The position numbers were made by a program, and so were the translations under genes. DNA of 15,250 bases from Reyranella sp. GTDB taxonomy: Bacteria; Pseudomonadota; Alphaproteobacteria; Reyranellales; Reyranellaceae. Shown here in pieces: positions 904-15,250 of the stretch (within the stretch, counting starts at the first letter, position 1; each line of letters opens with the position of its first letter). The stretch is taken from NCBI GenBank assembly GCA_016780605.1, contig JADHLS010000034.1, positions 1 to 15,250 on the forward strand, read 5' to 3'. The notes beneath the pieces are model-generated. The model was not told where the DNA came from and made no database searches. It was given only the letters and a program-made list of their open reading frames with translations.

Positions 904-1458
904 TCAGGAAGCGGCGCGGGATCGCTGCCGCAACGGCGTGTCGACAAAGTCAGGCGCCCTGCCGATGTAGTCGGACGCGGCGCGACGCCCTTCTTCCGAA
1001 AGGCCTTGTATGTACTCCATAGCGGCGTCGACAGAGAACGGCTTGCCTGTCTTCTCCGGGAAGTTGCTCTGCAAGTCAGTCCAGACGACGGCTTTGAAAT
1101 TCTTCGCTTTGGCCCAGGCCGCGATGCGCGATTTTGTGTCGCCGTCGCGCGACTTCCCCTCTCCACTGGGTCGAACGTAGCCGACGTTCGCGCTACTTGT
1201 GCCTTCTCGCTTGCGGAGGTCTTCGATGGCAAGCGACAGGCGGCTCCGCAAGCTCAAAGCGTAGGCAACCTGGATATCAGCGCCATCGCGCGTGTCCAGT
1301 ACGAGCGTTAAGGCGCCGGACCGTGTGATCGAGATGCGCGAGAACTCAATCTTCAGCGTAGGCCCATCGTGCTGCCATGCGCCGTGCCATTGGTCGAAGT
1401 CCGGGCGTGCGTCCCACAACAGCGAGCCCCAACCGAGGATGGCGATCGGGTCAGGCAT
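904..1458 (-). CDS. Gamma-glutamylcyclotransferase (GGCT)-fold family protein
   Basis: This is a 184-residue protein. Near its N-terminus, residues 6-15 (AILGWGSLLW) match the substrate-loop signature of the GGCT/ChaC/AIG2-like fold, where a Y/W-GSL motif follows the first strand. A second conserved-looking site is E85-G86 in LRKREG, where GGCT enzymes carry their catalytic Glu. Canonical family members remove gamma-glutamyl groups as 5-oxoproline, but many stand-alone relatives have unknown substrates. The ATG at 1456-1458 has AGGA six bases upstream. The start overlaps the end of the upstream gene by 8 bases, so the two are translationally coupled. The length is normal for the fold. The fold call is reasonably firm and the substrate is unknown. 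The partnership with a PUA-like gene and with an unknown gene downstream suggests an accessory rather than a glutathione role, which is inference. Confidence 0.8.
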   Translation of the reverse strand: MPDPIAILGWGSLLWDARPDFDQWHGAWQHDGPTLKIEFSRISITRSGALTLVLDTRDGADIQVAYALSLRSRLSLAIEDLRKREGTSSANVGYVRPSGEGKSRDGDTKSRIAAWAKAKNFKAVVWTDLQSNFPEKTGKPFSVDAAMEYIQGLSEEGRRAASDYIGRAPDFVDTPLRQRSRAAS

Positions 1459-1927
1459 GAGGATTCCTGACGCTTTCAGGTTCGTTGTCCAGATAGGCCA
1501 GAACAGGCCATTGCGGGACCGCGCCGGTGAACGGCTTGCCCTTGCCGTTGCGTTTGGTGAAGCGGGTGAGGGACAGCGGGTGATCCAACAGCCGAATGCC
1601 GGTCACTTCCAGAAATGAAATGAACGCGCTGTCGCCTTTCTCCGCCGTGAGCGGCCGGACTGTGCTGTCCGGGTGCTTTCCGGAGCGCGGACCACGTTCA
1701 ACGGCACGTTCAATCCTGTCGACCATGCCGGTCCATGTGACGACGCCAGGAACATGCCGTTCATGCGCAGGCCCGGAGGCATAGATGAAGATCGGCAAGC
1801 CGGCGTATTCCTCTGTCACGGCGAGGCTGCTTGTACCGAAGGCGACGCGATCTTTGAGGCGTGGTTCATTCTCGATCGCCTCCAGGTGGATCCATGGCAC
1901 CGGCGCTAGAACGACTTGGCTATGCAT
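1451..1927 (-). CDS. Small PUA-like (EVE/ASCH-type) candidate protein
   Basis: This is a 158-residue protein starting at the ATG at 1925-1927, with an AGGGAG about 11 bases upstream. The strand pattern has IFIYASG at residues 46-52, then PGVVTWTGMVDRI at 60-72, and later FISFLEVTGIRLL at 102-114. This resembles EVE/ASCH members of the PUA superfamily, which bind modified bases or RNA. EVE proteins are commonly found next to restriction and other defence genes. The family call rests on this pattern alone and no diagnostic catalytic residue is visible. The 3' end overlaps the GGCT-like gene by 8 bases, which suggests their products are made together. A gap of 106 bases separates it from the MltR-like gene upstream. 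It could equally be an unrelated beta-rich protein. Confidence 0.72.
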   Translation of the reverse strand: MHSQVVLAPVPWIHLEAIENEPRLKDRVAFGTSSLAVTEEYAGLPIFIYASGPAHERHVPGVVTWTGMVDRIERAVERGPRSGKHPDSTVRPLTAEKGDSAFISFLEVTGIRLLDHPLSLTRFTKRNGKGKPFTGAVPQWPVLAYLDNEPESVRNPHA

Positions 1928-2033
1928 TGCCGGTTTACTCCCTTCTCGTTATTCGCGGTTCACTTCGGCAAGACGCTGGATGAACGATTTGCACTTGTTC
2001 TTGGCGAACTTGTCGAAATTATTCTGCCGCTAC

Positions 2034-2606
2034 TCAACGCAACAGCGTCGGGCCGCCTTGGTCGTCGGCTCGTATCTTGCGACGCTCGAGGCGCGCTACG
2101 CCGGCAAGTCCGTCTAAATAGCCGATCAATTGGTTCACATCGACTTTGAAGATGTCTCGCGGTGTGGCGTCGGACGGCGCTTTCATCATCATGGAAAACT
2201 CGTGCCACCTCAGAGAAAGACACCACCCGCGTACGGGTTCGAGGTCGAAGGATGCCTGCAATTCGTGAGCAAACTTGTTACGTATCCTTCCGACCATTCG
2301 AAGATCATCCCGAACAGTCTTGCAGATTAATCCGAGGCAATACGCAGCAGTCACGCGGCTGGAAAAGGTCCCCAGCGGGCGGTCAAAACCCAGCAACTTG
2401 CTCGCTTCCTTCTCGTCATCGATCATGAAGTTGATGAGCGTATGCTCAAGGATCGAATCGAGAAAGGTCACGCCCACGATTGCAATAGCCCGCTCGTCTA
2501 CGACGCCTTGCTCATTGAAGAGTTTGTGGAACTCCTCTAAAGCGTCGCGACGTTGCCAGTGTCGATGCAAGTCTTTGCCGGCGATGACGTGCGCTTCTTC
2601 TACCAT
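2034..2606 (-). CDS. MltR-family (HEPN-like) protein with R-x4-H motif
   Basis: This is a 190-residue protein with a strong ribosome site (GAGGGGAG) just upstream of the ATG at 2604-2606. Its layout follows the MltR family. There is a helix with ERAIAIVGVTFLDSILEHTL (residues 38-57), then PLGTFSSRVTAAYCLGLI (77-94), and then DDLRMVGRIRNKFAH (100-114). MltR was named from the enteric mannitol operon repressor, but most relatives have no link to mannitol. No mannitol genes are visible here. R109-N-K-F-A-H114 has the R-x4-H spacing that marks ribonuclease HEPN domains of toxins and abortive-infection proteins. The helical context after a conserved S/R helix fits that fold. I infer a possible RNase or nucleotide-handling role. 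Its neighbours are a Cys/His finger gene 77 bases upstream and a PUA-like gene downstream on the same strand. Confidence 0.85.
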   Translation of the reverse strand: MVEEAHVIAGKDLHRHWQRRDALEEFHKLFNEQGVVDERAIAIVGVTFLDSILEHTLINFMIDDEKEASKLLGFDRPLGTFSSRVTAAYCLGLICKTVRDDLRMVGRIRNKFAHELQASFDLEPVRGWCLSLRWHEFSMMMKAPSDATPRDIFKVDVNQLIGYLDGLAGVARLERRKIRADDQGGPTLLR

Positions 2607-3408: not shown

Positions 3409-4023
3409 CTATTGCCAGAGTGCCGCCCACGGCCGCAGCATCTGCCAGTACGTGACTGGAGTCAGAATGCGGATGCCAAGCTCACGCTCGATGGGCTCCG
3501 CGTTACGCGGCAGGCGTCTTTCCATGGTCAGGAATACTTCGCAGCGGAAGGCGACCGCTTCTTCCAACAGCACATGGTCCTTCTTGCCGAGATATCCGAA
3601 CCTCGGTTCTCGCAGCCTGGCAGCATGAGCCCAGCTCTCTTTACTCGCGCCATCAAGAGCGAGGCAGGCCGCCGAGTGCCGGGCGATATCGTAAACCCAG
3701 CGCAGGTGGCCGGGATCGCCTTTGTCGTTCGCTTCCACCATGCTCGCGTGAGAGACGATCCACTCAAACTGTGCGCGCTCGTTGAGCTGAAAGATGTCCC
3801 GCAACGCCTCGACCTTCTCGACGCCTCCAGGCACCCGGAAGAGGCGATCAGAATCGGGAATCGCTTCGCCTTCGAAGATGAAGGCCCCATAGTCACGGAG
3901 CGTCTGGGCCGTGCATGAATCCAGGAATATCCGGCGCGGCAATTGTTCAAGCGGTGTGCTCATTGGCCTGGCACGACCATCATCATCATGATGATGATGG
4001 TCCTCTTCATCATGTTGGTGCAC
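3409..4023 (-). CDS. PIN-like domain protein, probable nuclease
   Basis: The frame encodes 204 residues from a GTG at 4021-4023, which has AGGA six bases upstream, or 184 residues from an ATG at 3961-3963, which lacks a clear ribosome site. PIN-fold features follow: RIFLDSCTAQTL with Asp35 at the end of the first strand, Glu98 in SHASMVEAN, a KKDHVLLEEA helix (Asp149, Glu154/155), then FLTMERRL with Glu168, and a final ILTPVTYWQML. This order of acidic residues and the closing 'T-P-x-x-F/Y/W' strand-helix is typical of PIN nucleases, which cut RNA or, less often, DNA using Mg. At this length it is bigger than most VapC toxins, and no antitoxin gene is evident beside it. With the GTG start the protein has a leader rich in His and Asp (residues 2-15), encoded by a perfect palindrome. 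It is separated from both clusters and probably has its own promoter. Confidence 0.72.
   Translation of the reverse strand: MHQHDEEDHHHHDDDGRARPMSTPLEQLPRRIFLDSCTAQTLRDYGAFIFEGEAIPDSDRLFRVPGGVEKVEALRDIFQLNERAQFEWIVSHASMVEANDKGDPGHLRWVYDIARHSAACLALDGASKESWAHAARLREPRFGYLGKKDHVLLEEAVAFRCEVFLTMERRLPRNAEPIERELGIRILTPVTYWQMLRPWAALWQ
3975..4002. repeat. Perfect 28-bp palindrome at 5' end of the PIN-like gene
   Basis: The half-site GACCATCATCATCA is followed directly by its exact reverse complement, with no spacer. The symmetry stops at both ends. If translation of the PIN-like gene starts at the ATG at 3961-3963, the palindrome sits 12-39 bases upstream of the start codon, where an operator or a 5'-UTR hairpin would lie. 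If it starts at the GTG at 4021-4023, the palindrome lies in the coding region and encodes a run of four His and three Asp. An operator or autoregulatory site is inference. Confidence 0.6.
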
Positions 4024-4401: not shown

Positions 4402-4572
4402 ATGGTGTTCGGTTTGCCGGCAGCACTCGCAGGCTTCAGCGTCGTTCAGCAGATCCGGCATTTACTGTTACCCAGCACGACTTGGCAATATGCCGTAGGT
4501 CTTGTTGCTGCCGCTGCAACTGGCACCATCGCGATTACGCGGCTCGCCGTTAAAGGAACTGGCTCACCTTGA
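4402..4572 (+). CDS. Small hydrophobic membrane protein candidate (56 residues)
   Basis: This short frame runs from the ATG at 4402 to a TGA at 4570-4572. It has two hydrophobic segments, MVFGLPAALAGFSVV and YAVGLVAAAATGTIAI, separated by QQIRHLLLPSTTW. This fits two membrane helices or a hairpin. The frame is open further back to a stop at 4321-4323, and that stretch (LPVLLFLAGKAIYHTSG) is also hydrophobic. The true product may therefore be longer, using a TTG or GTG start, or may be the C-terminus of the frame at 4134-4352 joined by a +1 shift. There is no clear ribosome site. Its last 9 bases overlap the end of drmC, which is transcribed towards it. Confidence 0.35.
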   Translation: MVFGLPAALAGFSVVQQIRHLLLPSTTWQYAVGLVAAAATGTIAITRLAVKGTGSP

Positions 4573-4576
4573 GCCA
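4560..4576. terminator. Short hairpin at the convergent gene ends
   Basis: TGGCTCA is followed by the loop CCT and then TGAGCCA, a perfect 7-bp stem. It spans the stop codons of drmC (minus strand) and the small membrane frame (plus strand). Its position fits a bidirectional transcription end. However, the stem is short and there is no run of T on either side, so an intrinsic terminator is only weakly supported. Confidence 0.25.
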
Positions 4577-5130
4577 TTACTTCTCAAGGCAGAAATCTGC
4601 AGCATGCTCTGGACGACATCGTGGACCTGCTTCACGGCTTGGCCCTCCAGCAGAACGCCGCATTCGAGCGATAGCTCCTTGGACGATCTCAAAAAGTTGG
4701 CGGACCCAACGTAAGCCGCGACCTGATCGGCGAGAACGATTTTAGCGTGGAAGGTTTCGGCAGCGCGACTCCCCCAACCTTTCGGTGCGCGCTCTAGGAA
4801 GTATTCGTGGATTGCAACACCGGCAGTGGACAAGCGCGTCTCATAGGGAGAAGTCACGTGGTTGTAATGGCGACAAATAAGAGCTCGATCGGGCGCACGG
4901 GTCGCTTCGAACAGCGACGAAGCCCATTCCAACCCGTCTGCATCCAAGAATGGCGAGACCACGACGAGACGCTCCGAAGCCCTTCGGCTTAGATGCAGAA
5001 ACGTCTCCATCGTCTCGATGAGCACGCCGCTGTCGTTGATTCCGGCAAGCGCCCTCTCGAAATGGGACGGCCGCATCGGAACTGTGACAACAATCCGCGC
5101 GCGATCGTTGTCGTCCTTTCTGGCGGTCAT
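4564..5130 (-). CDS. drmC: DISARM protein DrmC, phospholipase-D-fold protein
   Basis: This is a 188-residue protein with one HKD motif: H128-x-K130-x4-D135 in TFHAKIVLAD, followed by VGSANFL with Gly142 and Asn145. An upstream strand-helix at residues 54-70 (RLVVVSPFLDADGLEWA) is typical of the family. PLD-fold enzymes with a single HKD usually dimerise to build one active site, and many are nucleases. In DISARM the third core gene drmC encodes such a protein. As I recall the original Bacillus work, it was the least essential core gene. The ATG at 5128-5130 overlaps the drmB stop by four bases (ATGA), so it is translationally coupled and is the last gene of the operon. It seems slightly short for DrmC, but both motifs are complete. 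The family is clear and the name rests on the context. Confidence 0.9.
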   Translation of the reverse strand: MTARKDDNDRARIVVTVPMRPSHFERALAGINDSGVLIETMETFLHLSRRASERLVVVSPFLDADGLEWASSLFEATRAPDRALICRHYNHVTSPYETRLSTAGVAIHEYFLERAPKGWGSRAAETFHAKIVLADQVAAYVGSANFLRSSKELSLECGVLLEGQAVKQVHDVVQSMLQISALRSNGSR

Positions 5131-7349
5131 GCACAGATCTCAAAAAAGCCGGTCACATAATCGCGGCCGCCCTCTCTTGCTTCCCACATGGGCAAGGACC
5201 CGCCAGCAAGCGCCGCGCGCGACACGAGCTGGTTACCGGCGATGCAGGAAATATCGGAAATAAGGATGCAGGCCGGACACGCGGCGCCCCGGGCATCGCA
5301 TAAGCTTCCCGAGCCGCATCGGAGCGACCTAGGCTCCATCATATGGCCGAGAAAAGTTTTGGCTTGATTGCGCCACATCGCCGAGATGTTTCCCAGATCG
5401 GGAGTCATGCCCCTGCGGTACAGAACGAATGCCAAGTCGGCAGGGTAGAGGTGCTCGCCGATCCCATCGCGATCCAAGCCGGACGTTTCAGCCAGCGCCT
5501 CGATCATCTGATGGGAAACGGAATGCAGCAGCATATAGATGTAGGAACACAGGGTCCGTGGCGTCTGCCCCTCCTCGCGCGTCCGGTATGCTTCCATAAA
5601 TGGTTTGAAGTCCTGGTATTGCTCCAGATACGCAGCTCCCAATTGTCCGAGTTGCGGAAGGTCGGGGACGCCATTGGCCTCCAGCCATTTGAGCACCTGG
5701 CCTTCGTCCAATCGGACGTAGAAGGCTTCATTATCCTGTTCGAGTACGTAAATCGGACTGCTGCCCCCGGAATTTTCGCTAATGAGGGATGGAAACGCCA
5801 TGAGCCGAACCGGCATCGGCACGGAGCGATTGTTATGCTCGCGGGTATAAATCGGTGTCGGCGAGACGCGAGAGTAACCGAAGGTGTATTCGCAGATCGG
5901 GAGATTGCGGATCAGCACCATCTCCTTGATGCCGCTGCGGTTGAGCAGACCGCCGATGACGCGCTTGTAATCTGCAAATCTGGCGGGATCCCCGACAGCG
6001 TCCGACAGTGTGCGATCCGGCGACAGGACGTTGTTCGCCTTGCGCTCCTCGACCTTGTGGCGGACGTGTTCGTCGTAGAAGGTGGCGTGCTCCAGAGTAA
6101 GCCGGATGGGATCGAACCGCTTCGCCCATGCGGAGCGAAGCGCGATGTTCTGACGCAAGGCCGAGCTTTGAACCGAGCCCTTTTCGATCAAATTGTCCGC
6201 AAACCATTTCTGCCGGATGGCGTCGGCTTCCTTCCTGAAAGCTCTGGCGCGCCCCGGCGAGGCTTCCTTTCTGGCGTCGCCATCCAGCTCAACCCACTCG
6301 GTCCATTCCTGTTCACGCCCGCACGCCCTTAGCTTTTCTTGAATTTCCACCTCGGACGGCTCCGCGAACGGCACGTTGTGGATGGTCGCGATTTCGCGAG
6401 CGAGCGCCTCATGCTCGCTTGGCCCCAGCAAGAGGAGTCTCCGGCCGTCCTCCAGAACGATGAACCGATTGCCTTGGACATACTGCACAGCATTGGCCCG
6501 GTACGAGACCGGCAGCATATTGATCTCGATAAATTCATGCGTCTCGCCAGCCTGCTGCTTGCCACCAAGAATAGTCCTTGTGAACTTATCAGCCTTCGTC
6601 ACATCCGAAGTTTCCGAACAGCCCACGCACCGGAAGTACCAATCGGAAAAGCTAGTGCTGTTGTTATGAAGCGTGAATTCGTCGCTGCCGCATTTGCCGC
6701 ATTTCTCATAGGCGATCACGCGACGTTCGTTGGGCAGATACTCGTAGCGCGTCGGCGTCAGCGGCTCGAGCGTTCCGGACCAATGAACGAACACGACGTC
6801 GACCTGTTTCCAATCCGAGGCATGGTCCGAACAGCGCCGCGGCAGCGCCTCTTTGGCCTGTGTCTCTGGACTTTCGTAGTGGCGAAGCCGCTTACAGACG
6901 GTGCATTGAAACAACAGTGGATAGGGGATGTAGCCCATCTTCGTCGGATTGGTGAACTCGAAACCGGCATCCAAATCGACCTGGACTTCGTGGCCGTTCA
7001 AAAATTTCCGATCTAGGCACTGCTCCATATAGATGGGCGCGCCATTCGGCCGGCAATTGGCGGCGCGTGCCGCCCACGTGGCGACAAACTCGTCGATCCC
7101 CTCCCCGATCATTCGTCGCTGCGTGGCGTGGGGCTTCTTCAAGTCCGCAAGAGGCACCGACAGGCAGATGCCGCGTCCGCCTTCCCAGGTGAACAGCTTC
7201 CCCGGCGCGTAGGTGGTCGCGACCTGGCCGCGTGAGCGGACCATGGTCGGGGCCTTCGGCGTTCGCTGGTCGTCGGCGGTGTCCGGCTTTCCGAAGAACC
7301 GTTGCGGAGTTTTGCGCCCGCCTGAAACTGGAGATGGATTTTTCGCCAT
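5127..7349 (-). CDS. drmB: DISARM protein DrmB (DUF1998 zinc protein)
   Basis: This is a 740-residue protein. It carries a metal site C149-x2-C152 followed by C173 and H176, and a second site C217-x2-C220 with C241-x2-C244. The C-terminal third has the DUF1998 pattern: SHQMIEALAETSGLDRDGIG, LYPADLAFVLYRRG, and a cysteine cluster at C678, C684, C691, C694 and C702. DUF1998 occurs in DrmB and in helicase-associated proteins. DrmB forms a complex with the helicase DrmA, and DrmAB is reported to bind DNA with 5' overhangs. The gene starts at the ATG at 7347-7349, 17 bases after drmA, and ends overlapping drmC by four bases. The usual Gly-Gly after the 'vY' strand is replaced here by DLGNISAMW, a small departure. 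The order directly after a DrmA-type helicase makes the assignment firm. Confidence 0.93.
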   Translation of the reverse strand: MAKNPSPVSGGRKTPQRFFGKPDTADDQRTPKAPTMVRSRGQVATTYAPGKLFTWEGGRGICLSVPLADLKKPHATQRRMIGEGIDEFVATWAARAANCRPNGAPIYMEQCLDRKFLNGHEVQVDLDAGFEFTNPTKMGYIPYPLLFQCTVCKRLRHYESPETQAKEALPRRCSDHASDWKQVDVVFVHWSGTLEPLTPTRYEYLPNERRVIAYEKCGKCGSDEFTLHNNSTSFSDWYFRCVGCSETSDVTKADKFTRTILGGKQQAGETHEFIEINMLPVSYRANAVQYVQGNRFIVLEDGRRLLLLGPSEHEALAREIATIHNVPFAEPSEVEIQEKLRACGREQEWTEWVELDGDARKEASPGRARAFRKEADAIRQKWFADNLIEKGSVQSSALRQNIALRSAWAKRFDPIRLTLEHATFYDEHVRHKVEERKANNVLSPDRTLSDAVGDPARFADYKRVIGGLLNRSGIKEMVLIRNLPICEYTFGYSRVSPTPIYTREHNNRSVPMPVRLMAFPSLISENSGGSSPIYVLEQDNEAFYVRLDEGQVLKWLEANGVPDLPQLGQLGAAYLEQYQDFKPFMEAYRTREEGQTPRTLCSYIYMLLHSVSHQMIEALAETSGLDRDGIGEHLYPADLAFVLYRRGMTPDLGNISAMWRNQAKTFLGHMMEPRSLRCGSGSLCDARGAACPACILISDISCIAGNQLVSRAALAGGSLPMWEAREGGRDYVTGFFEICA

Positions 7350-7366
7350 GTGGCTTTCGCGCCTTC

Positions 7367-10300
7367 TCAGGCTTCCTCCGGCCTTATGTCGGGCTCATCG
7401 ACGTCGTTGACCCTGGATTTTTGACCTCTGATTGCTCGCATCACGCGCTCGACCGATTCGGTCTTGAGCCACCGATCGGTATTGGGATCCCGCCGCGCAG
7501 CAACGATGATGGCGGCCTCGTCCACGTCGCGGAGGGAAGTCATCGGCTTTTGAGTCGGCAGGCGATCGCCCCACAATTCGCGCAGCTCTATGGCGCTCGG
7601 TGGAAGCGCATCGGTAAAATCCTTGATCAACTTCAAGATGACGTTGGTATAGTGCTCGCCGTGATAGGGCTTGCCCAAACCATCAGGGCCTTGTCCGTCA
7701 AAGCCGACGGCCACTTTCATGAACTCGGCCAGTCGATCGCGGAACGCAATGCGATCATGCTCAAAGGTTGCATGCAGGGATTTGGCGATGTCGTTGCGCT
7801 GCATTAAGTGCTTCTGACCGTCCGGCAGGCTGCAAAATTGCTCGATTTCACGCATGACGCCCCATGCCTGGATAATCGAGGCCGTAATCCGGCGCAGGGC
7901 ATTGTCCGCCCATCGCTCCGACGCCGGTGCGGCGATCATTCGCTCCAGGAAGCGGTGATACATCTGATGCGCCTCGACAATGTATCGGTCGCGTTTGCTT
8001 TGCGGTGTCGGAATCAGGATCACGAAGCCAACATGCATGCGGCCGACGCGGCTCGATGCCTGGATGTACTCGGCAACGTCGGCGGGCATTCCCGCAAAAA
8101 ACATACTGTTGAAGCGGTCGACGTCGACGCCATGGGAAATGGCCGACGTGGCGACGATACTGCGCATCGTTTCCGAGATGGGCGGCATCGGCGTCCCTGC
8201 GGGAATGCCGCTTTCCGCACGCTTCATGACGCCCTGGATGGAGCCCATGTCAATCCCGCCCGTGATGAGCTCGCTTTCGAACGCGCGCATTTCCATCCCG
8301 TTCGTCTCGTGGTCGCGGCGCACCTGTGTTTCGAGGGCGTCCATGACCTGGTCGCCGCCCTTCTTGTTCGTCACATAGGTCAATGCGATGCGATGGAGAT
8401 CAACGAGCGCCAGGGCCTCGTCAAAGCGTTTCTGCTGCCGAAGCACCTCAAGCGCTTTCCTGCGCCACTCGCCCTCCTGTCCGGGCGATATAAAGGACTC
8501 CAGCCGTTGCAAGGCGCTGGCCGGTTGGTCGCCGAGGAGCGCGTCCCACAATTCCGAAATGCAGACATGGAACGCGGACAGGGCGGCGACGGTCGTCACG
8601 GTGTGACTGGCGCCATTTGTCATCAGTGAGCAGAACAGCCTCATCCAGGGTGCAGTGACCTGCGGACCGTTCACCGGTCCGAGCTCAACGCCCAAACCCT
8701 GTCGGTCCTTATTTCCGGCGGGTGCGTCCGCCGGCGCGGCATAGAACGAGCGGTAAAGATCGGGACCGGGGTGCGGAAATTGGACCGGCTTACGTTGGTA
8801 CAGGACGGCCAGCTGCTTGTCAGGATCGGACACGGTCGCCGTCGCCGCGATGATCTTCGGCATGCGGGGCCGTTCCTTGGTCGATCGCGCCGCCTCGAGG
8901 CCCTTCCCGCAAATCTGGTCGATGCTCGTCAACAACGTCTCGAATGTCGTCTCGAACAAACCGCTGAACGTCCCGAGGCTTTCTTCGAGAAGGTGCATTT
9001 CGTCTTGGATGACGATCGACGGGAACGGATCTTTGAAGATTCGGCATCCGTTCTGATAGGCCGGGAAGACGGGCGCATACCCTTCCTCCTCCGGCCCGGC
9101 TTCGAGCAGGTCGGACGTGCGCGGCGAAAACAAATGCCCGTCGGCAGCCACCCACCGCGCGGTTCCGAACATACCCAGTACGGATGTGATGGTGTTGGGA
9201 TGCTGGCCGATCATTGCCAGCTTATCGACGGTGCCGAGCACGACACTGGGAGCACGTTGATATATTGTGTCGTCCGTCAGGAGGAACGGCAGCGGCGTCC
9301 GAACCTCGCCCGGATGTGCCTTATTCCAGGCGCAGGACGCGTTGAAGCATACAATACCGACCCGCTTGGATCGCGCGACGGCGCCATTGAACAAGCGTAA
9401 GCCCGTCTCTTCCTGGCAGATCGGACAGGTCGGAATCTTGCAATAGGCGACCCGCATATCCTCGTAGCCGCGCGCGAAGTCTCTGTCCTTGTCGGGTGCA
9501 GCTGACGTAGCGAGTGTCGCTTTGAGTACTTCATCGTTGGGGTGCGCCGCGTCATCGACGGCCGGGACGGTCTTGATGCCACTGACGTTATTCGGTGTGT
9601 TGGCACTTCCCACCCAGAACCCAACCTCGAACGGCCAGACGCCCAAATCGGCATTTTTTCGGATCAACTCGGCTTGGATCACAAGTCGAAGGAGCCTTTG
9701 TGCCTGTTGCAATGTCAAAAGGCGCAGCGGATAGCGAACGAGCGCCGTGACGCCCCGGTCTTTTCCCCGCAATCGGTCGAGAAACAGACCGAAGACCAAT
9801 ATGCCGTAGAAGGCTTCGGACTTACCGCCGCCGGTCGCGAAATAGAGAAGGGTCGCCTCTTCCTCATCGAACTTGGGGTCGTGCCACTTGCCAAATTCCG
9901 GCATGCGCGAGGCAATGGTCGGAAGATGCGCCAGCACAAAGGCCATTTGGAACAGACGCCAGCCCGCTGTCGAATTTCCCTTTTCACGGTCGAGTAAGGC
10001 GCGATTCATCAACAGCCAGGCGCGATAAGGTGCGCCTTGTCTGAGGAGCGAGTCCCGCCTATCGCCGGACGCGGATTGTCCTTCGAGATAGGCGGAGCGC
10101 GATAGAATCAGGAGTTTGATCCCGCGCTTGATGAGACCCGCCTCCCGGTTCCACGACTCGATATCCTTCGTGAGGCGCTCGGATTCGATCGCAGCATCTT
10201 CCGCCGACAATCCTTGACGCACTTCGGCCTTGAGGCGCGTCGACTCCTCCTTGATCCAGGTGCGGTAGACGTCGGGCAGCGGCGAGAGTTCGTCGGGGTT

Positions 10301-11704
10301 GAAGCTATCAGCCGACAGTTTGGCGAATTCAACCGGCACGCCGAGGCCGAGTGGCACGATCCTGATCTGCAGGAACCGGGGCGACCATGTCGTCGCGAGC
10401 TTCACGCGCCCGTCGGCCATAGACGCGGTGATGCCGTTGTTCAGGCCGATCGCGGGATATTCCATATGGTGTCGGAAACGATAAGACGGCTCGATGCGAT
10501 CCGGGATCAGAGGCTTGTGGACCGCTTCCGGCAGCTCGATCTCAATCCCGGCAGCAAAGACAGATGCGCATTGATGCTGACGGCGTTTCTTACTGAGTTG
10601 CCGATTATTGTTTTCTAGGGCTACGCGGAGACTGCGCACCCTGGGGTCCGCGAAATTGGCGGCGTCCTGCACCGTGACCCGCATTTCCTCCACGGGAGGC
10701 CGGACGGCTTGCAAGTCCGGCTTTGTTTTACGCACGCGCTCAAGATACGCCGTCCACGCTGCTTCGTTGACGACATCGGTCGGGGTCACTTTCTCGTCGC
10801 GCCACGCTTCGGCCTGGCCTTCCGGCGACGTGAGCCATGCATCGACTTGGGCGGTCACGGCTGCGGCGATCTCTTTAGCGAAGGCGGAAAGGTCCACGTC
10901 GCGTATCCGAGTGTCCAGCTCCCAGCGCAGGGCCGCGAGCGTGAGATCGATGCGTTTCCATTTAACGGGAATATCTGCGGGCTTCGCCAAGTGCGGCGGC
11001 ACCTGATGGTCGCCCCAGACGAATTTGAACGGAACATCACGCTCGGGCGGTGGCGCATCGACGGGAGTTTCAGGACCAGCAGTTTCTTCTATCGTTTCCG
11101 GGGACTCGTCCGCTTCGCTTTCCGGCAACCCCGCGCTCTCGATCCCATACTCTTTGTAAATCTGCTTTGTCGTTTCCTCTTTGAGCGCGGTGCGCCGAGC
11201 CTGCCGCTGGCGGCGGTCTTCGCGCGACACGGTCTTCGGGTCGTCCCGGCCGACCAGGCCCTCTTCGGTGCATCGCGCCTTCGTCGCTTCGCGGATGCGT
11301 TGAACGATCTCCTTCCGGATCGTCGGCATCAGGTCGAAGGTCGGGTGAATTCCCAAACGTCGATCGACCAGCTCGCTCCAGTTAGGAAGGACGCGCACAT
11401 AGACGGAGAACCGGGGCCGAATGGATGCCGGTCCCGTCGCCTCCTTGGTGACTTGCAAGTCCAGACCGATGACCGAGATATGAATGTCAGAGGTTTCGTC
11501 CTCGTCACCGATCTCGGCGAAGCGCGGCAACAGGAAGCCGGACACAAACGCCCGTTCCGGCAATCGCCCATAGACAATGCGGCCAAAATCGCCGGTGCCG
11601 GAGCAGCGCGCCACAGTCATATTGACCAAGGCGTCCGCCACGGCCTCCTTGGCTTCCTGCAGCGAGGCGTTCAACGATTGCGGGGCTACGCCGATACGGG
11701 TCAT
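7367..11704 (-). CDS. drmA: DISARM helicase DrmA (superfamily 2)
   Basis: This is a 1445-residue superfamily 2 helicase. Walker A is FATGGGKSEAF with Lys628. The DEXH box is IQDEMHLLEESLG with D901-E-M-H904. Motif III is AATATVS near residue 955. Motif VI is QASSRVGRMHVGF, spanning Gln1215 to Arg1222 with arginines at 1219 and 1222. Between motifs I and II lies an insertion with C756, C760-x2-C763 and C786-x4-C791, which looks like a zinc ribbon. The first 600 residues carry no helicase motif. They include an acidic Glu/Pro-rich linker (around residues 190-220) after a basic helix, and presumably a DrmA-specific recognition region. The role is ATP-driven work on invading DNA together with DrmB. 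The ATG overlaps the upstream gene by four bases, and GGAGGA lies nine bases before it, so it has its own strong ribosome site. The length is at the large end for DrmA. Confidence 0.94.
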   Translation of the reverse strand: MTRIGVAPQSLNASLQEAKEAVADALVNMTVARCSGTGDFGRIVYGRLPERAFVSGFLLPRFAEIGDEDETSDIHISVIGLDLQVTKEATGPASIRPRFSVYVRVLPNWSELVDRRLGIHPTFDLMPTIRKEIVQRIREATKARCTEEGLVGRDDPKTVSREDRRQRQARRTALKEETTKQIYKEYGIESAGLPESEADESPETIEETAGPETPVDAPPPERDVPFKFVWGDHQVPPHLAKPADIPVKWKRIDLTLAALRWELDTRIRDVDLSAFAKEIAAAVTAQVDAWLTSPEGQAEAWRDEKVTPTDVVNEAAWTAYLERVRKTKPDLQAVRPPVEEMRVTVQDAANFADPRVRSLRVALENNNRQLSKKRRQHQCASVFAAGIEIELPEAVHKPLIPDRIEPSYRFRHHMEYPAIGLNNGITASMADGRVKLATTWSPRFLQIRIVPLGLGVPVEFAKLSADSFNPDELSPLPDVYRTWIKEESTRLKAEVRQGLSAEDAAIESERLTKDIESWNREAGLIKRGIKLLILSRSAYLEGQSASGDRRDSLLRQGAPYRAWLLMNRALLDREKGNSTAGWRLFQMAFVLAHLPTIASRMPEFGKWHDPKFDEEEATLLYFATGGGKSEAFYGILVFGLFLDRLRGKDRGVTALVRYPLRLLTLQQAQRLLRLVIQAELIRKNADLGVWPFEVGFWVGSANTPNNVSGIKTVPAVDDAAHPNDEVLKATLATSAAPDKDRDFARGYEDMRVAYCKIPTCPICQEETGLRLFNGAVARSKRVGIVCFNASCAWNKAHPGEVRTPLPFLLTDDTIYQRAPSVVLGTVDKLAMIGQHPNTITSVLGMFGTARWVAADGHLFSPRTSDLLEAGPEEEGYAPVFPAYQNGCRIFKDPFPSIVIQDEMHLLEESLGTFSGLFETTFETLLTSIDQICGKGLEAARSTKERPRMPKIIAATATVSDPDKQLAVLYQRKPVQFPHPGPDLYRSFYAAPADAPAGNKDRQGLGVELGPVNGPQVTAPWMRLFCSLMTNGASHTVTTVAALSAFHVCISELWDALLGDQPASALQRLESFISPGQEGEWRRKALEVLRQQKRFDEALALVDLHRIALTYVTNKKGGDQVMDALETQVRRDHETNGMEMRAFESELITGGIDMGSIQGVMKRAESGIPAGTPMPPISETMRSIVATSAISHGVDVDRFNSMFFAGMPADVAEYIQASSRVGRMHVGFVILIPTPQSKRDRYIVEAHQMYHRFLERMIAAPASERWADNALRRITASIIQAWGVMREIEQFCSLPDGQKHLMQRNDIAKSLHATFEHDRIAFRDRLAEFMKVAVGFDGQGPDGLGKPYHGEHYTNVILKLIKDFTDALPPSAIELRELWGDRLPTQKPMTSLRDVDEAAIIVAARRDPNTDRWLKTESVERVMRAIRGQKSRVNDVDEPDIRPEEA

Positions 11705-14526
11705 GCGGCCGCGTCCTCCGATTTGAAGACCGACTTCTTCTCCACGCGTCCGACGAAGTCCTCGGCCAGGCGGCGCAAGGACCGCAAGCCGTCCGCAATT
11801 CTGGGATTCTCGGCAAGCCTCGCGTGCGGATCGACGAGGATTCCAAGATAAGCTTCATGAAACTGCAGAGCGGCCGACACGCGCCGCGAGCGGGTGGCGA
11901 CGACAGCCCATGTCCAATCGATTTGCGCGGCGCGCTCGCCTCGGCCTATGGCGGTCATGAACTTCAGGAACTCAGGCAATCGCTGCGGCGCGTTCGGCCG
12001 CACCAGCCGCAGATCCTCTTGCAGGTATTTATCGACGTTGATCCAGTTGTAGACGCGGTCGACAAGTCCGGGCTCTCCCATACGCTTGGCGATCTCGACG
12101 GCCTTATCCCTACGGGTCTTGCCTGGTACCGATGGAAGCGCGTCGCGGACAGTCTCGTGATAGCTCCGCAGCCCAGCCGCCGCGGTGGCCCGGATGTCTA
12201 ACAACCCGCGTGCACCTTCAATAAAGGCGTCGCCGAGTACGGCGATCTCATCTCCGACATTGATCTCGTCGGCGCGCCCTCTTTGAAAGGGATTCGCCGG
12301 ATCGTCCCAGTCGCAGAGCACGAGATCGCTTCCCGGACGTGCATTGATCGTATAGTTGTTGCTGGTCTTGAAAACGATAATCTGCGGACTGCCCTTCGTC
12401 CCCAAATCCACGACGCTGGACATGGGGATGAACTCGACATCTTCTTCCGGCGGCTCGTCCCAGGTCAGCGCCGTCCTGCTTGCATCCCGCCGAGCAATTT
12501 CGTCCGCTCCCTCTTGGGCCAGGCGCGACAGGCGCTTCTGCACCGGAACGCCGAATGCCGTGAAGCGCGACAGGCGCTTTGAATCCGAGGCGATGTTCTT
12601 CAGGAGATCAAGATCACCAACCACAAACACGTCGCGCGGCAACCACGGGAGGGCCATGAGTCTCGTGGCGTCCGCCCTCTTTGGACCGACGAGGACCAAC
12701 CAGCCGATGTGATTGCGGAACGTGCGCGGATCGCTGCCTCCGCCTTCGCGCAGCAGCGCTTCGGTGCTCGGGTAATCCATGGCGATCAGCATTTCCTGAT
12801 CGAGACGCTTCTTGAAGCGCTCGCCGATCGGAGACGCCAGAAGTCGGTCGCGCGCAAAGTCCAGTGCAGTTCCGTCCCTCATCGTGAGCAGGACCTTCGA
12901 CGATTTACCCATCAGGTCACCCACAACGCTCTCCAGGACCGATCCCATTGGCGTCGTCGTGTTGTACTGGCTCAAGAATTCTTCGATCTTTTGCCGAAGT
13001 GACTTGATCTCCTCGGGATAGCCCTGCGCTAGCGCCAACGCGGGATTCTCGAGCTCGGTGAAAATGTGTTGGGGACGATAGCCGGCCATGACCTGAATGG
13101 CCGTCTCTATGCCGTCGCTCTCGGTCACAAAGTCGTCCAGAAATTGAAGGCCGCCGGGCGCATTGGCGCACCTGCGGATGACGGATTTCAATAACCGGAG
13201 CAAACGTGCGGACTGATCGTCGTCGATCATGAGCGCGCGCTGGTGAAGACCGTTCAAGCCATCAAGAACTTCGCGCCCAATTCCGCCAAACCCGACGGCT
13301 CGGATGTGCTCGCACCCCTCGAAACTGATTGGAGCAGCGGCCGTTGCAGCGACAATCGAGCCTTGCTCGCAATAAAGCGCCGGTTGTGCGATCGGCACTT
13401 GTCCCTTCTTCGGCAAGTCCGGCCGCGCGTCGTGAGCGGCGAGCAAGTCGCGAGCAAAAACGGTGTGCGTGAACGGATCATCGGTCACGGCCAACACGGG
13501 AACACGACCAAAGAGTCGTCTGACCGTGGCGAGCACGTCCGCGTATTTTTCTTTCCAGGCGTCGCCCAGCCCCCGCGTGGCGCGGCTTGTTGCGTCGATC
13601 AGAACACCATGCAGGGGGCCCATGGTCTTGATCAGGGCTTTGTTCGGACGCGCGGTGCGATGCAGGGCGAGCATCATATAATGGGCGGTCTGGGGATTGT
13701 CGGGGGAGCCGAGACTAAGGTCGGGGAGTTGGGTAAAACGTCGCGTACGATGCAGCAGACCGTGCGACGACACGGATCCATCCATCAACACGGCCTGTGG
13801 GGAGAGCTCGGTCAACGTCGGGTGAGAATATTCGGCAAGCTTGGCCTGAGGCCGCCCCCGTCGACCTTTGACGGTGCCATCCAGGTCCTTGACGCGGATC
13901 AACGCACGATGGAGATCAGACAGAGGCGATGAATGGCTGTGCTCAGCTGACCGTCCGCGGTTTATGTGGTGCAGGTTGGTTTTCAGAACCCAATTCTTGT
14001 CGACCAGAACACTGGACTGCGCCAAGCGTGAGGGCCGTACCCAGGGATAGAACAAGGTCCGAAGCGCCCCGGGCTCATGAGCGGCCCCCTGTCCGTCGGC
14101 GCCCTTGGAATCGGGAACTGTGAGCAGCGCCTGCACTGCAAGCGCATGCACGATCGCGATATTCGGCGGCGCGTAGGGCCAACACAGGATCGCTTCCGAC
14201 CGGTTTGTCCGTTGCACGCGAAACAAGCCTTCGACCAAATCGGGCACGGGATTTCGCGGCGTACTGCGGACGTCGATGCGATCGGCCAGAATGAGCGGAA
14301 GGCTACGTATCGCGGATAAGATTGTCTCCGACGGCGGGACATCGCGACCCTCCGGCTTTACGACCACCTCGACGGGTTTTTCGGCTTTGGGCTTGACCCC
14401 AGCGTGCTTCATCTTCTCGATCAGCGCCCGCTTTTGCTCCGCAACCTCCTGATCGCGCCGTTGAATCTTATTCAGATTGTGGTCCTGAGGGCGGAACTGC
14501 GGAGGCGGGTTGGAGGGGCGTTTCAT
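11701..14526 (-). CDS. Large DISARM-associated protein, tentatively DrmE-like
   Basis: This is a 941-residue protein between the methylase and drmA. It is joined to the first by a TAATG overlap and to the second by an ATGA overlap. Residues 15-50 form a basic, coiled-coil-like N-terminus (KIQRRDQEVAEQKRALIEKM). There are Rossmann- or RecA-like strand-turn patterns near residue 310 (HGVLIDATSRATRG), around 545 (SSKVLLTMRDGTALDFARDR) and at 605-640 (GWLVLVGPKRAD, RDVFVVGDLDLL). No Walker A or DEXH box is present. The section near residue 720 (VFKTSNNYTINARPGSDLVL) leads into a region rich in acidic residues and then EINVGDEIAVLG, a beta-rich unit. DrmE of class 2 DISARM is similar in size, has a helicase-like fold without clear motifs, and lies just upstream of drmA. 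That position and architecture are the basis of my tentative name. It may instead be an uncharacterised DISARM component. Confidence 0.85.
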   Translation of the reverse strand: MKRPSNPPPQFRPQDHNLNKIQRRDQEVAEQKRALIEKMKHAGVKPKAEKPVEVVVKPEGRDVPPSETILSAIRSLPLILADRIDVRSTPRNPVPDLVEGLFRVQRTNRSEAILCWPYAPPNIAIVHALAVQALLTVPDSKGADGQGAAHEPGALRTLFYPWVRPSRLAQSSVLVDKNWVLKTNLHHINRGRSAEHSHSSPLSDLHRALIRVKDLDGTVKGRRGRPQAKLAEYSHPTLTELSPQAVLMDGSVSSHGLLHRTRRFTQLPDLSLGSPDNPQTAHYMMLALHRTARPNKALIKTMGPLHGVLIDATSRATRGLGDAWKEKYADVLATVRRLFGRVPVLAVTDDPFTHTVFARDLLAAHDARPDLPKKGQVPIAQPALYCEQGSIVAATAAAPISFEGCEHIRAVGFGGIGREVLDGLNGLHQRALMIDDDQSARLLRLLKSVIRRCANAPGGLQFLDDFVTESDGIETAIQVMAGYRPQHIFTELENPALALAQGYPEEIKSLRQKIEEFLSQYNTTTPMGSVLESVVGDLMGKSSKVLLTMRDGTALDFARDRLLASPIGERFKKRLDQEMLIAMDYPSTEALLREGGGSDPRTFRNHIGWLVLVGPKRADATRLMALPWLPRDVFVVGDLDLLKNIASDSKRLSRFTAFGVPVQKRLSRLAQEGADEIARRDASRTALTWDEPPEEDVEFIPMSSVVDLGTKGSPQIIVFKTSNNYTINARPGSDLVLCDWDDPANPFQRGRADEINVGDEIAVLGDAFIEGARGLLDIRATAAAGLRSYHETVRDALPSVPGKTRRDKAVEIAKRMGEPGLVDRVYNWINVDKYLQEDLRLVRPNAPQRLPEFLKFMTAIGRGERAAQIDWTWAVVATRSRRVSAALQFHEAYLGILVDPHARLAENPRIADGLRSLRRLAEDFVGRVEKKSVFKSEDAAA

Positions 14527-15250
14527 TACCGCACCGCCCTCACCGGTGTTGGTAACGTCAAGGCCGTCGATGTTTTTTGATATGCAAGCTCGACCGCCTG
14601 CTCGAAATCATCAGCAATGCGAAGGCTTTCCCGAAGGTGTTCGGGTTTTGGCAACGGCAAGTCCCGCAACGAGGACACAGACACGCTGGCCGTCCCGGCG
14701 ATACGGCGGTACCTAACGTCAACCGCAGCGCTGTTGAGCAACCGGCAAACGAGATCGAGCTTTACGCCAGCCTTCGCCGGCACGACGGCGATGGTATGAT
14801 TCTCTGTGACAAAGCCGCCATACGTATCAATCACTGTCGATGGTACGATCGCCGCAAGCAGGCGGCGACGTTGCTTGTTGTTGGTGGTGCGCTGAAGGAC
14901 GATGGCCGACGTATCGATCACGCCCGTGTTTTCCGTCCCGAACGACACGAAGTCGACCGTCTTTCCGTCTTTCGATCCCGGCCAGCACCACCGCCCGGCG
15001 CTGATATTCTTTGCCCAAAGCAATGGGTACTGGGTCTCTGTCGCTTTCAGCCGCTTCTTGTTGAGGCGGGCTTTCTCGCGGTTCCAAACGAAGTAGCCGG
15101 CTTTGATGTGGACGCCGAAATCCGCGAGCCGACCAGGACAAGAGGCGAACGCAACGTCGTCATGCTCGCCGCCGCCCCCTGGCAGAATCCAGGCCGAACC
15201 GAAGTCATTGTCGGCCGATCGCGCCGTGCCGATTTGTCTGGCTTTCCAGC
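14526..15250 (-). CDS. N6-adenine-type DNA methyltransferase, C-terminal part, cut by right edge
   Basis: This frame is open from the right edge to a TAA at 14526-14528, giving the last 240 residues of a larger protein. The signature of the target-recognition half of Eco57I/TaqI-like adenine methylases is present: ADFGVHIKAGYFVWNREKARL (from about residue 45), then QYPLLWAKNISAGRWCW, then TVIDTYGGFVTENHTIAV. The last is followed by a helix-rich tail ending at the stop (SVSSLRDLPLPKPEHLRESL). These pieces follow the N6_Mtase/TaqI-C pattern, in which a conserved 'YPLLxA' strand and an 'EN-H' segment precede the C-terminal helices. The catalytic domain with its NPPY motif lies outside the window, so adenine rather than cytosine methylation is inferred from this family. 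In DISARM the methylase protects self DNA. It is the first gene of the operon in view. Confidence 0.85.
   Translation of the reverse strand, partial: WKARQIGTARSADNDFGSAWILPGGGGEHDDVAFASCPGRLADFGVHIKAGYFVWNREKARLNKKRLKATETQYPLLWAKNISAGRWCWPGSKDGKTVDFVSFGTENTGVIDTSAIVLQRTTNNKQRRRLLAAIVPSTVIDTYGGFVTENHTIAVVPAKAGVKLDLVCRLLNSAAVDVRYRRIAGTASVSVSSLRDLPLPKPEHLRESLRIADDFEQAVELAYQKTSTALTLPTPVRAVR

Follow-up and report, generated by a model that had tools for sequence, protein, structure and literature searches.

A 15,250-nucleotide stretch of Reyranella sp. DNA (contig JADHLS010000034.1 of assembly GCA_016780605.1; hereafter the window) carries an operon that very probably encodes an anti-phage system of the DISARM type (defence island system associated with restriction-modification). 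We assign it to a distinct third lineage with the order methylase, DrmE-like protein (X), DrmA, DrmB and, in part of the members, DrmC. Class 1 DISARM consists of DrmD, DrmMI, DrmA, DrmB and DrmC, and class 2 of DrmMII, DrmE, DrmA, DrmB and DrmC. The window is the entire contig (15250/15250 bases), and the operon runs off its right end inside the methylase gene. The right edge beyond position 15250 was unreadable in the source genome, and complete relatives were read in its place.

Core genes and methylase

An earlier note, made from the sequence alone, had described an adjacent drmA, drmB and drmC core, and PADLOC matched all three proteins: DrmA (PDLC02575, E-value 2.3e-88), DrmB (PDLC02582, E 5.8e-17) and DrmC (PDLC02588, E 5e-9, with PF13091 also over its cut-off). 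Window DrmA also matched the solved DrmA structure 7s9v_A (E 3.6e-45), and it contains the motifs ATGGGKSE, VIQDEMH and QASSRVGR. The corresponding NCBIfam models matched at 361 of the 950 bits of the curated cut-off for DrmA (NF038325, E 1.4e-107), 35 of 240 for DrmB (NF038324) and 42 of 133 for DrmC. A single H-x-K-x4-D motif (HAKIVLAD) was present in DrmC.

The methylase tail, which the earlier note had taken for the adenine type, bore out that assignment. It matched the PADLOC model PDLC03338 (MTase_II, E 4.6e-41), the best PADLOC match for all eight operon methylases compared (the window fragment and seven full-length proteins). Class 2 cytosine methylase DrmMII was not what the four full-length methylases scanned resembled: Pfam N6_Mtase and Eco57I matched in each of them. 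The full-length operon methylases are approximately 515-660 amino acids (aa) long, shorter than DrmMI, and NPPY or NPPF was present in 15/15. As controls, two class 1 methylases matched DrmMI at E 0 and a class 2 methylase matched DrmMII. Because PDLC03338 is the best match, while the class 1 controls score DrmMI at E 0, the operon methylase is an adenine-type enzyme other than class 1 DrmMI. The window fragment covers the specificity part of an adenine DNA methylase of the Eco57I/N6_Mtase type, whose catalytic part lies past the contig end.

Relationship of X to DrmE

The protein encoded directly upstream of drmA, here called X, gave no PADLOC or NCBIfam match in the window and a single Pfam match below the cut-off. 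Pfam DrmE_C, which does match one haloarchaeal DrmE, matched none of 17 X proteins, and the NCBIfam DrmE model matched none of the five scanned. The PADLOC DrmE models missed all six X proteins searched; this says little about X, because they also missed the DrmE of the class 2 control. That control locus (L015) consists of a cytosine methylase, DrmE (NF038316, E 6.5e-34), a helicase-like gene, DrmA and DrmB.

X was then compared, profile against profile, with a set of six to seven DrmE or similarly placed proteins. Two haloarchaeal plasmid genes carry the annotation DrmE family; the Allocoleopsis and Rubrobacter rows were included by gene position, and the Rubrobacter row later gave a weak DrmE_C match (E 0.0002, below cut-off). 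The X profile was built without G1039, a near copy of G1028, and its R. johnstonii row is the annotated 662-aa form, the open frame being 918 aa. With hhalign the X family matched the DrmE set at 97.1-97.7% (E 6e-11 to 2e-12), and the C-terminal halves alone matched at 97.9% (E 3.6e-13). The match spans 331 columns and takes in the last RecA-like part, a beta part and a helical part, with their order kept. Column shuffles gave 0.0% in 40/40 cases and the reversed alignment 0.1%; the X profile against six other families (UvrD, DrmA, DrmB, DrmD and two methylase controls) reached at most 0.3%. Dropping groups of DrmE rows retained 96-97% (96% without Allocoleopsis or Rubrobacter), with one exception considered below. 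X therefore appears to be a remote relative of DrmE, beyond recognition by the DrmE models tried. The suggestion of a DrmE-like gene upstream of drmA thus held at the level of profile-profile comparison, 97% over the C-terminal half, although no DrmE model matches X.

Residues ~85-660 of X were modelled, with low confidence, as a superfamily 2 (SF2) helicase-like core lacking a conserved Walker A motif, followed, at similarly low confidence, by predicted beta strands at ~715-765 and a helical C-terminal part at ~766-935. The DrmE model from the class 2 control had a predicted local distance difference test score (pLDDT) of 41 and no PDB match at E <=0.001; only its C-terminal strand and helix order was used. 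The two models agree on that order, but they are not independent, as X rows are in the DrmE alignment. A PDB sequence search with the X profile returned a single designed-protein match (E 0.006), which was judged to be chance. No DrmA chain stood among the 50 rows listed in the VIA-align comparison for X, an absence that carries no weight. Plasmid searches with two DrmE rows gave no matches.

Two further proteins touch on the DrmE family. A DISARM-like locus of Rhodococcus opacus (L026, 3092-4612) encodes a 507-aa protein with a weak DrmE profile match (59%, E 9e-5), perhaps a short form of DrmE encoded next to a gene with a NERD domain. A 1792-aa frame elsewhere (L016, 5613-10991) has a P-loop-like motif at its start and a DrmE-family region at its end, and is possibly a fusion.

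Related operons in other genomes and plasmids

Genomes with X, counting the starting genome, were 2 of 101 relatives, 2 of 76 in the order, 1 of 385 in the class (its own genome only) and 3 of 398 in the phylum; the families of the two phylum hits contributed 5 of 249 and 3 of 200. X was also present in 5 of 72,556 plasmid records. A drmA search found relatives in eight plasmid records (at least 98% of the length, 36-48% identity), among them Polaromonas naphthalenivorans CJ2 and Afipia carboxidovorans OM5, which were new and have an X-sized gene in the X position. Afipia OM4, with the same drmA search figures as OM5, was left out. The remaining plasmid matches listed had at most 67% coverage and ~26-33% identity, and 23 further records with drmA matches stood outside the listed rows. 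When each X protein was searched with a profile built without its own row and near copies, 16/16 were recovered (Afipia at E 2.3e-31, the other 15 at 1.8e-77 or better).

Seventeen loci, the window included, were analysed. X, drmA and drmB occur in that order in all of them, with drmA and drmB as separate genes. The methylase, DrmB and DrmC profiles each drew on eight of the counted loci and the DrmA profile on all 17; the check by leaving rows out covered the X family only. On this basis an adenine-type methylase is present in 16/17 loci, preceding X in 15 and following drmC in pRL10, and DrmC in 12/17. Among the 16 loci that were read through to their downstream end, no DrmC was found in four (L039-L042). 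Window DrmC (188 aa) is short compared with the ~277-356 aa of its counterparts in pRL10, Polaromonas, Afipia and G011, although start choices are uncertain. AbiE, VapBC, HipA and restriction-modification genes are among the neighbours of the relatives' loci.

Two loci call for separate mention. The stretch read from the S. americanum plasmid (L017) ends within a drmB (16859-22565) interrupted by insertion sequence (IS) elements of the IS66 type, so this copy of the system looks broken. A 6.7-kb Burkholderiales contig from a metagenome-assembled genome (JAIENF010000707.1) opens with an 84%-identical piece of the window drmA (L006, 2-247) and continues into genes resembling, by eye, diguanylate cyclase and flagellar genes, possibly a misassembly.

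Phylogeny of DrmA and DrmB

The DrmA tree had 35 rows and the DrmB tree 33, the latter without G1039 and without S. americanum, because of its interrupted drmB. All 17 X-linked DrmA proteins formed a single group (support of 100 in the Shimodaira-Hasegawa-like approximate likelihood ratio test, SH-aLRT), as did the 15 X-linked DrmB proteins (support 100). The X-linked DrmA joined five drmE-linked DrmA (three haloarchaeal, Rubrobacter and Allocoleopsis) and one Roseomonas DrmA, and this joined set separated, with support of 100, from the DrmA of class 1, of the class 2 control and of further DISARM-like loci. The exact neighbour of the X-linked DrmA is uncertain because long branches were flagged.

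Alternative explanations

The earlier note had proposed a hybrid or a third arrangement. Since both trees show a lineage of its own, the third arrangement fits better than a hybrid of class 1 and class 2 parts, and the recurrence of related operons in other bacteria argues for a distinct DISARM branch and not a one-off hybrid. A recent hybrid, in which the cytosine methylase of a class 2 system was replaced by an adenine methylase from class 1, is unlikely. The order methylase, DrmE, DrmA, DrmB is that of the class 2 control, bar one extra gene there, and a DISARM operon with both methylase types is described for Serratia in the DrmAB structure paper (PMC9142583). However, DrmE and DrmA would still be canonical after a recent swap, whereas X, DrmA and DrmB are all far diverged, DrmA and DrmB fall in groups of their own, and the methylase best matches a model other than DrmMI.

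It is still less probable, and indeed very improbable, that the locus is an ordinary class 1 system with X as an accessory and drmD-drmMI past the right contig edge, where the earlier note had left room for drmD. The window alone is not decisive here, as the contig ends inside the methylase and the genome is 61% complete. In addition, an SNF2-type gene of G011 partly matches DrmD (279 bits, cut-off 610), ~1.75 Mb away on the same contig. Against this, DrmD (NF038317) was over the cut-off in none of the ten genomes holding X, and no weaker match was present in the nine loci read from the other nine genomes. The model gave matches in 14/14 control genomes, in one of them over the cut-off, so a helicase family of this kind can be expected to produce weak matches. 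The gene annotation of six plasmid loci shows no drmD either (the R. phaseoli record carries no annotation). The methylases match PDLC03338, unlike the two true class 1 enzymes, and X-linked DrmA stands apart from class 1 DrmA. The DISARM profile models that the earlier note had proposed to run recovered DrmA, DrmB and DrmC; X was unmatched, the methylase was not DrmMI and no drmD was seen in complete relatives.

X could also be a helicase-like protein unrelated to DrmE that occupies the same position, its profile match arising from a common small beta domain; we regard this as about as unlikely as the recent hybrid. The beta part of the poor DrmE model gave weak intein-like Foldseek matches (E ~0.1 and above), and a widespread fold of that kind could give some signal. 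The N-terminal halves of X and DrmE do not match. Conversely, the match covers the last RecA-like part, the beta part and the helical part in the same order over 331 columns, the models (not independent) share the strand and helix order there, and the six control families stayed at or below the level given above.

Several observations weigh against a third, DrmE-type lineage. The hhalign match drops to 89.1% (E 2e-6) when the three haloarchaeal DrmE rows are removed, and the N-terminal halves remain unaligned (0.1%). Early comparisons with thin profiles (four rows against one or two) gave no signal, which appeared with fuller profiles only. A gene of Lactiplantibacillus that occupies the position of DrmE resembles neither the X nor the DrmE group in its profile matches, so position by itself makes no DrmE. 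The predicted X structure is poor (pLDDT 57, predicted template modelling score 0.38). At the R. phaseoli locus no methylase adjoins the operon, and the stretch read yields just a weak match (E 4e-10), encoded on the opposite strand; the nearest DrmA group includes the Roseomonas locus, where no DrmE was seen; and window DrmA, DrmB and DrmC are all under the NCBI curated cut-offs.

Comparison with known systems

In the PADLOC definitions type I combines DrmD with DrmMI and type II DrmE with DrmMII, a two-class scheme that couples methylase type to accessory gene (PMC9252829). The window locus satisfies neither definition. The X operons resemble class 2 in their separate drmA and drmB, their PLD-type drmC and the probable remote DrmE relative upstream of drmA, and a methylase heads the operon in 15/17. 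They differ from class 2, with its cytosine DrmMII, in carrying an adenine Eco57I-like methylase, in an X too diverged for the DrmE models tried and in their own DrmA and DrmB groups. With class 1 they share DrmA, DrmB, DrmC and an adenine-type methylase; unlike class 1, no DrmD was seen in X loci, the methylase is much shorter and matches another model, and DrmA lies on the other side of the tree.

The X operons also resemble the haloarchaeal, Rubrobacter and Allocoleopsis DrmE-linked systems (L029, L045, L047, L048 and L049), which fall on their side of both the DrmA and the DrmB tree, have a DrmE-like gene directly upstream of drmA and, in 3/5, a PLD gene after drmB as in X operons. Annotation or a model match identifies the gene as DrmE in L048 and L049, and a match below cut-off points the same way in L029. 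Unlike in X operons, the nearby methylase in L045 and L049 is a cytosine methylase. The Rubrobacter gene before DrmE gave faint methyltransferase matches below cut-off and could be an unrecognised methylase. An unusual set was seen on a Tsukamurella plasmid (L027, 2333-11427): cytosine methylase, RelA/SpoT-like protein, UvrD helicase, DrmA and DrmB.

ARMADA, defined by a YprA helicase that is fused to an OB-CON-DUF1998 part and accompanied by a BrxHII/RapA-like helicase (Bell et al. 2025, PMC12458937), shares with X operons a YprA-type helicase and an adenine-type methylase. This identity was rejected, as drmA and drmB are separate in 17/17 loci; no BrxHII/RapA-like partner was seen in X operons, nor any SNF2/RapA-type gene among the annotated neighbours in six plasmid loci. 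The same paper describes many DISARM-like classes as uncharacterised (Bell et al. 2025, PMC12458937), and the DrmA of X operons may already sit unnamed in its tree. Searches of an open-licence library for a third class or for DrmE listed no named third DISARM class. The operon is probably best described as a DrmE-type system that carries an Eco57I-like adenine methylase of its own, and less as a class 1/class 2 mix.

Proposed mechanism

By analogy, the operon would serve in defence. The Eco57I-like methylase, judging from its family and NPPY/F motif, would mark host DNA at an adenine motif of its own. According to the DrmAB structure paper (PMC9142583), DrmAB binds DNA that is single-stranded or has 5' overhangs, and its ATPase activity is lower on methylated DNA. 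A DrmA-DrmB helicase complex may likewise load on phage DNA with single-stranded ends and be held back on methylated self DNA. X, which has two putative RecA-like domains with apparently lost ATPase motifs and ends, after a small beta domain, in a helical part, could be a non-catalytic subunit that binds DNA or serves DrmAB as a scaffold. The PLD nuclease DrmC may cut; it would be a dispensable effector, because it was not found in 4/16 loci with the downstream end read, and the same paper calls it apparently non-essential (PMC9142583). A more specific proposal, which we advance tentatively and with rather less than even confidence, is a third DISARM class that combines the Eco57I-like adenine methylase with an ATPase-dead XPF/RIG-I-like pseudo-helicase; X would then show what DrmE proteins are in general: SF2 helicases that have degenerated, carry a small beta domain and supply DrmAB with a non-catalytic subunit for recognition.

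Gene layout and neighbouring genes

All five operon reading frames lie on the minus strand, in the 5' to 3' order methylase tail, X, drmA, drmB, drmC. They are tightly packed: TAATG joins methylase and X, ATGA joins X to drmA and drmB to drmC, and 17 bases separate drmA from drmB.

Table 1. Positions of the operon genes in the window.
Gene	Position	Strand	Description
drmC	4564-5130	-	188 aa; PLD-type nuclease
drmB	5127-7349	-	740 aa; C-terminal part matches DrmB; four CxxC motifs
drmA	7367-11704	-	1445 aa; YprA-type SF2 helicase
X	11701-14526	-	941 aa; probable divergent DrmE-family protein
methylase tail	14526-15248 (feature to 15250)	-	C-terminal 240 residues, open at contig edge

After drmC, positions 3409-4023 (minus strand) encode a 204-aa protein, PIN-like by eye, with no Pfam or PADLOC match. 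A relative is encoded on the R. phaseoli plasmid (L020, 7782-8408; 29% over 183 residues), 1.1 kb upstream of X, and none was present among the open reading frames of the other 15 loci. Further along, positions 904-2606 (minus strand) hold three more genes, a pair of 184 and 158 aa that overlap by 8 bases and one of 190 aa; their products gave no Pfam or PADLOC match and have no relatives among the open reading frames of the other loci.

Significance

As a DrmE-type system is accompanied by an adenine-type methylase in 16/17 loci, methylase chemistry and DISARM accessory subunit appear to be separable. Defining a class 3, with new models, would pick up loci whose genes now carry the annotation 'hypothetical protein' and 'helicase'. 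Members on sequenced plasmids, R. johnstonii 3841 pRL10 and P. naphthalenivorans CJ2 pPNAP03, make the system directly testable, and X would offer a route to the role of DrmE.

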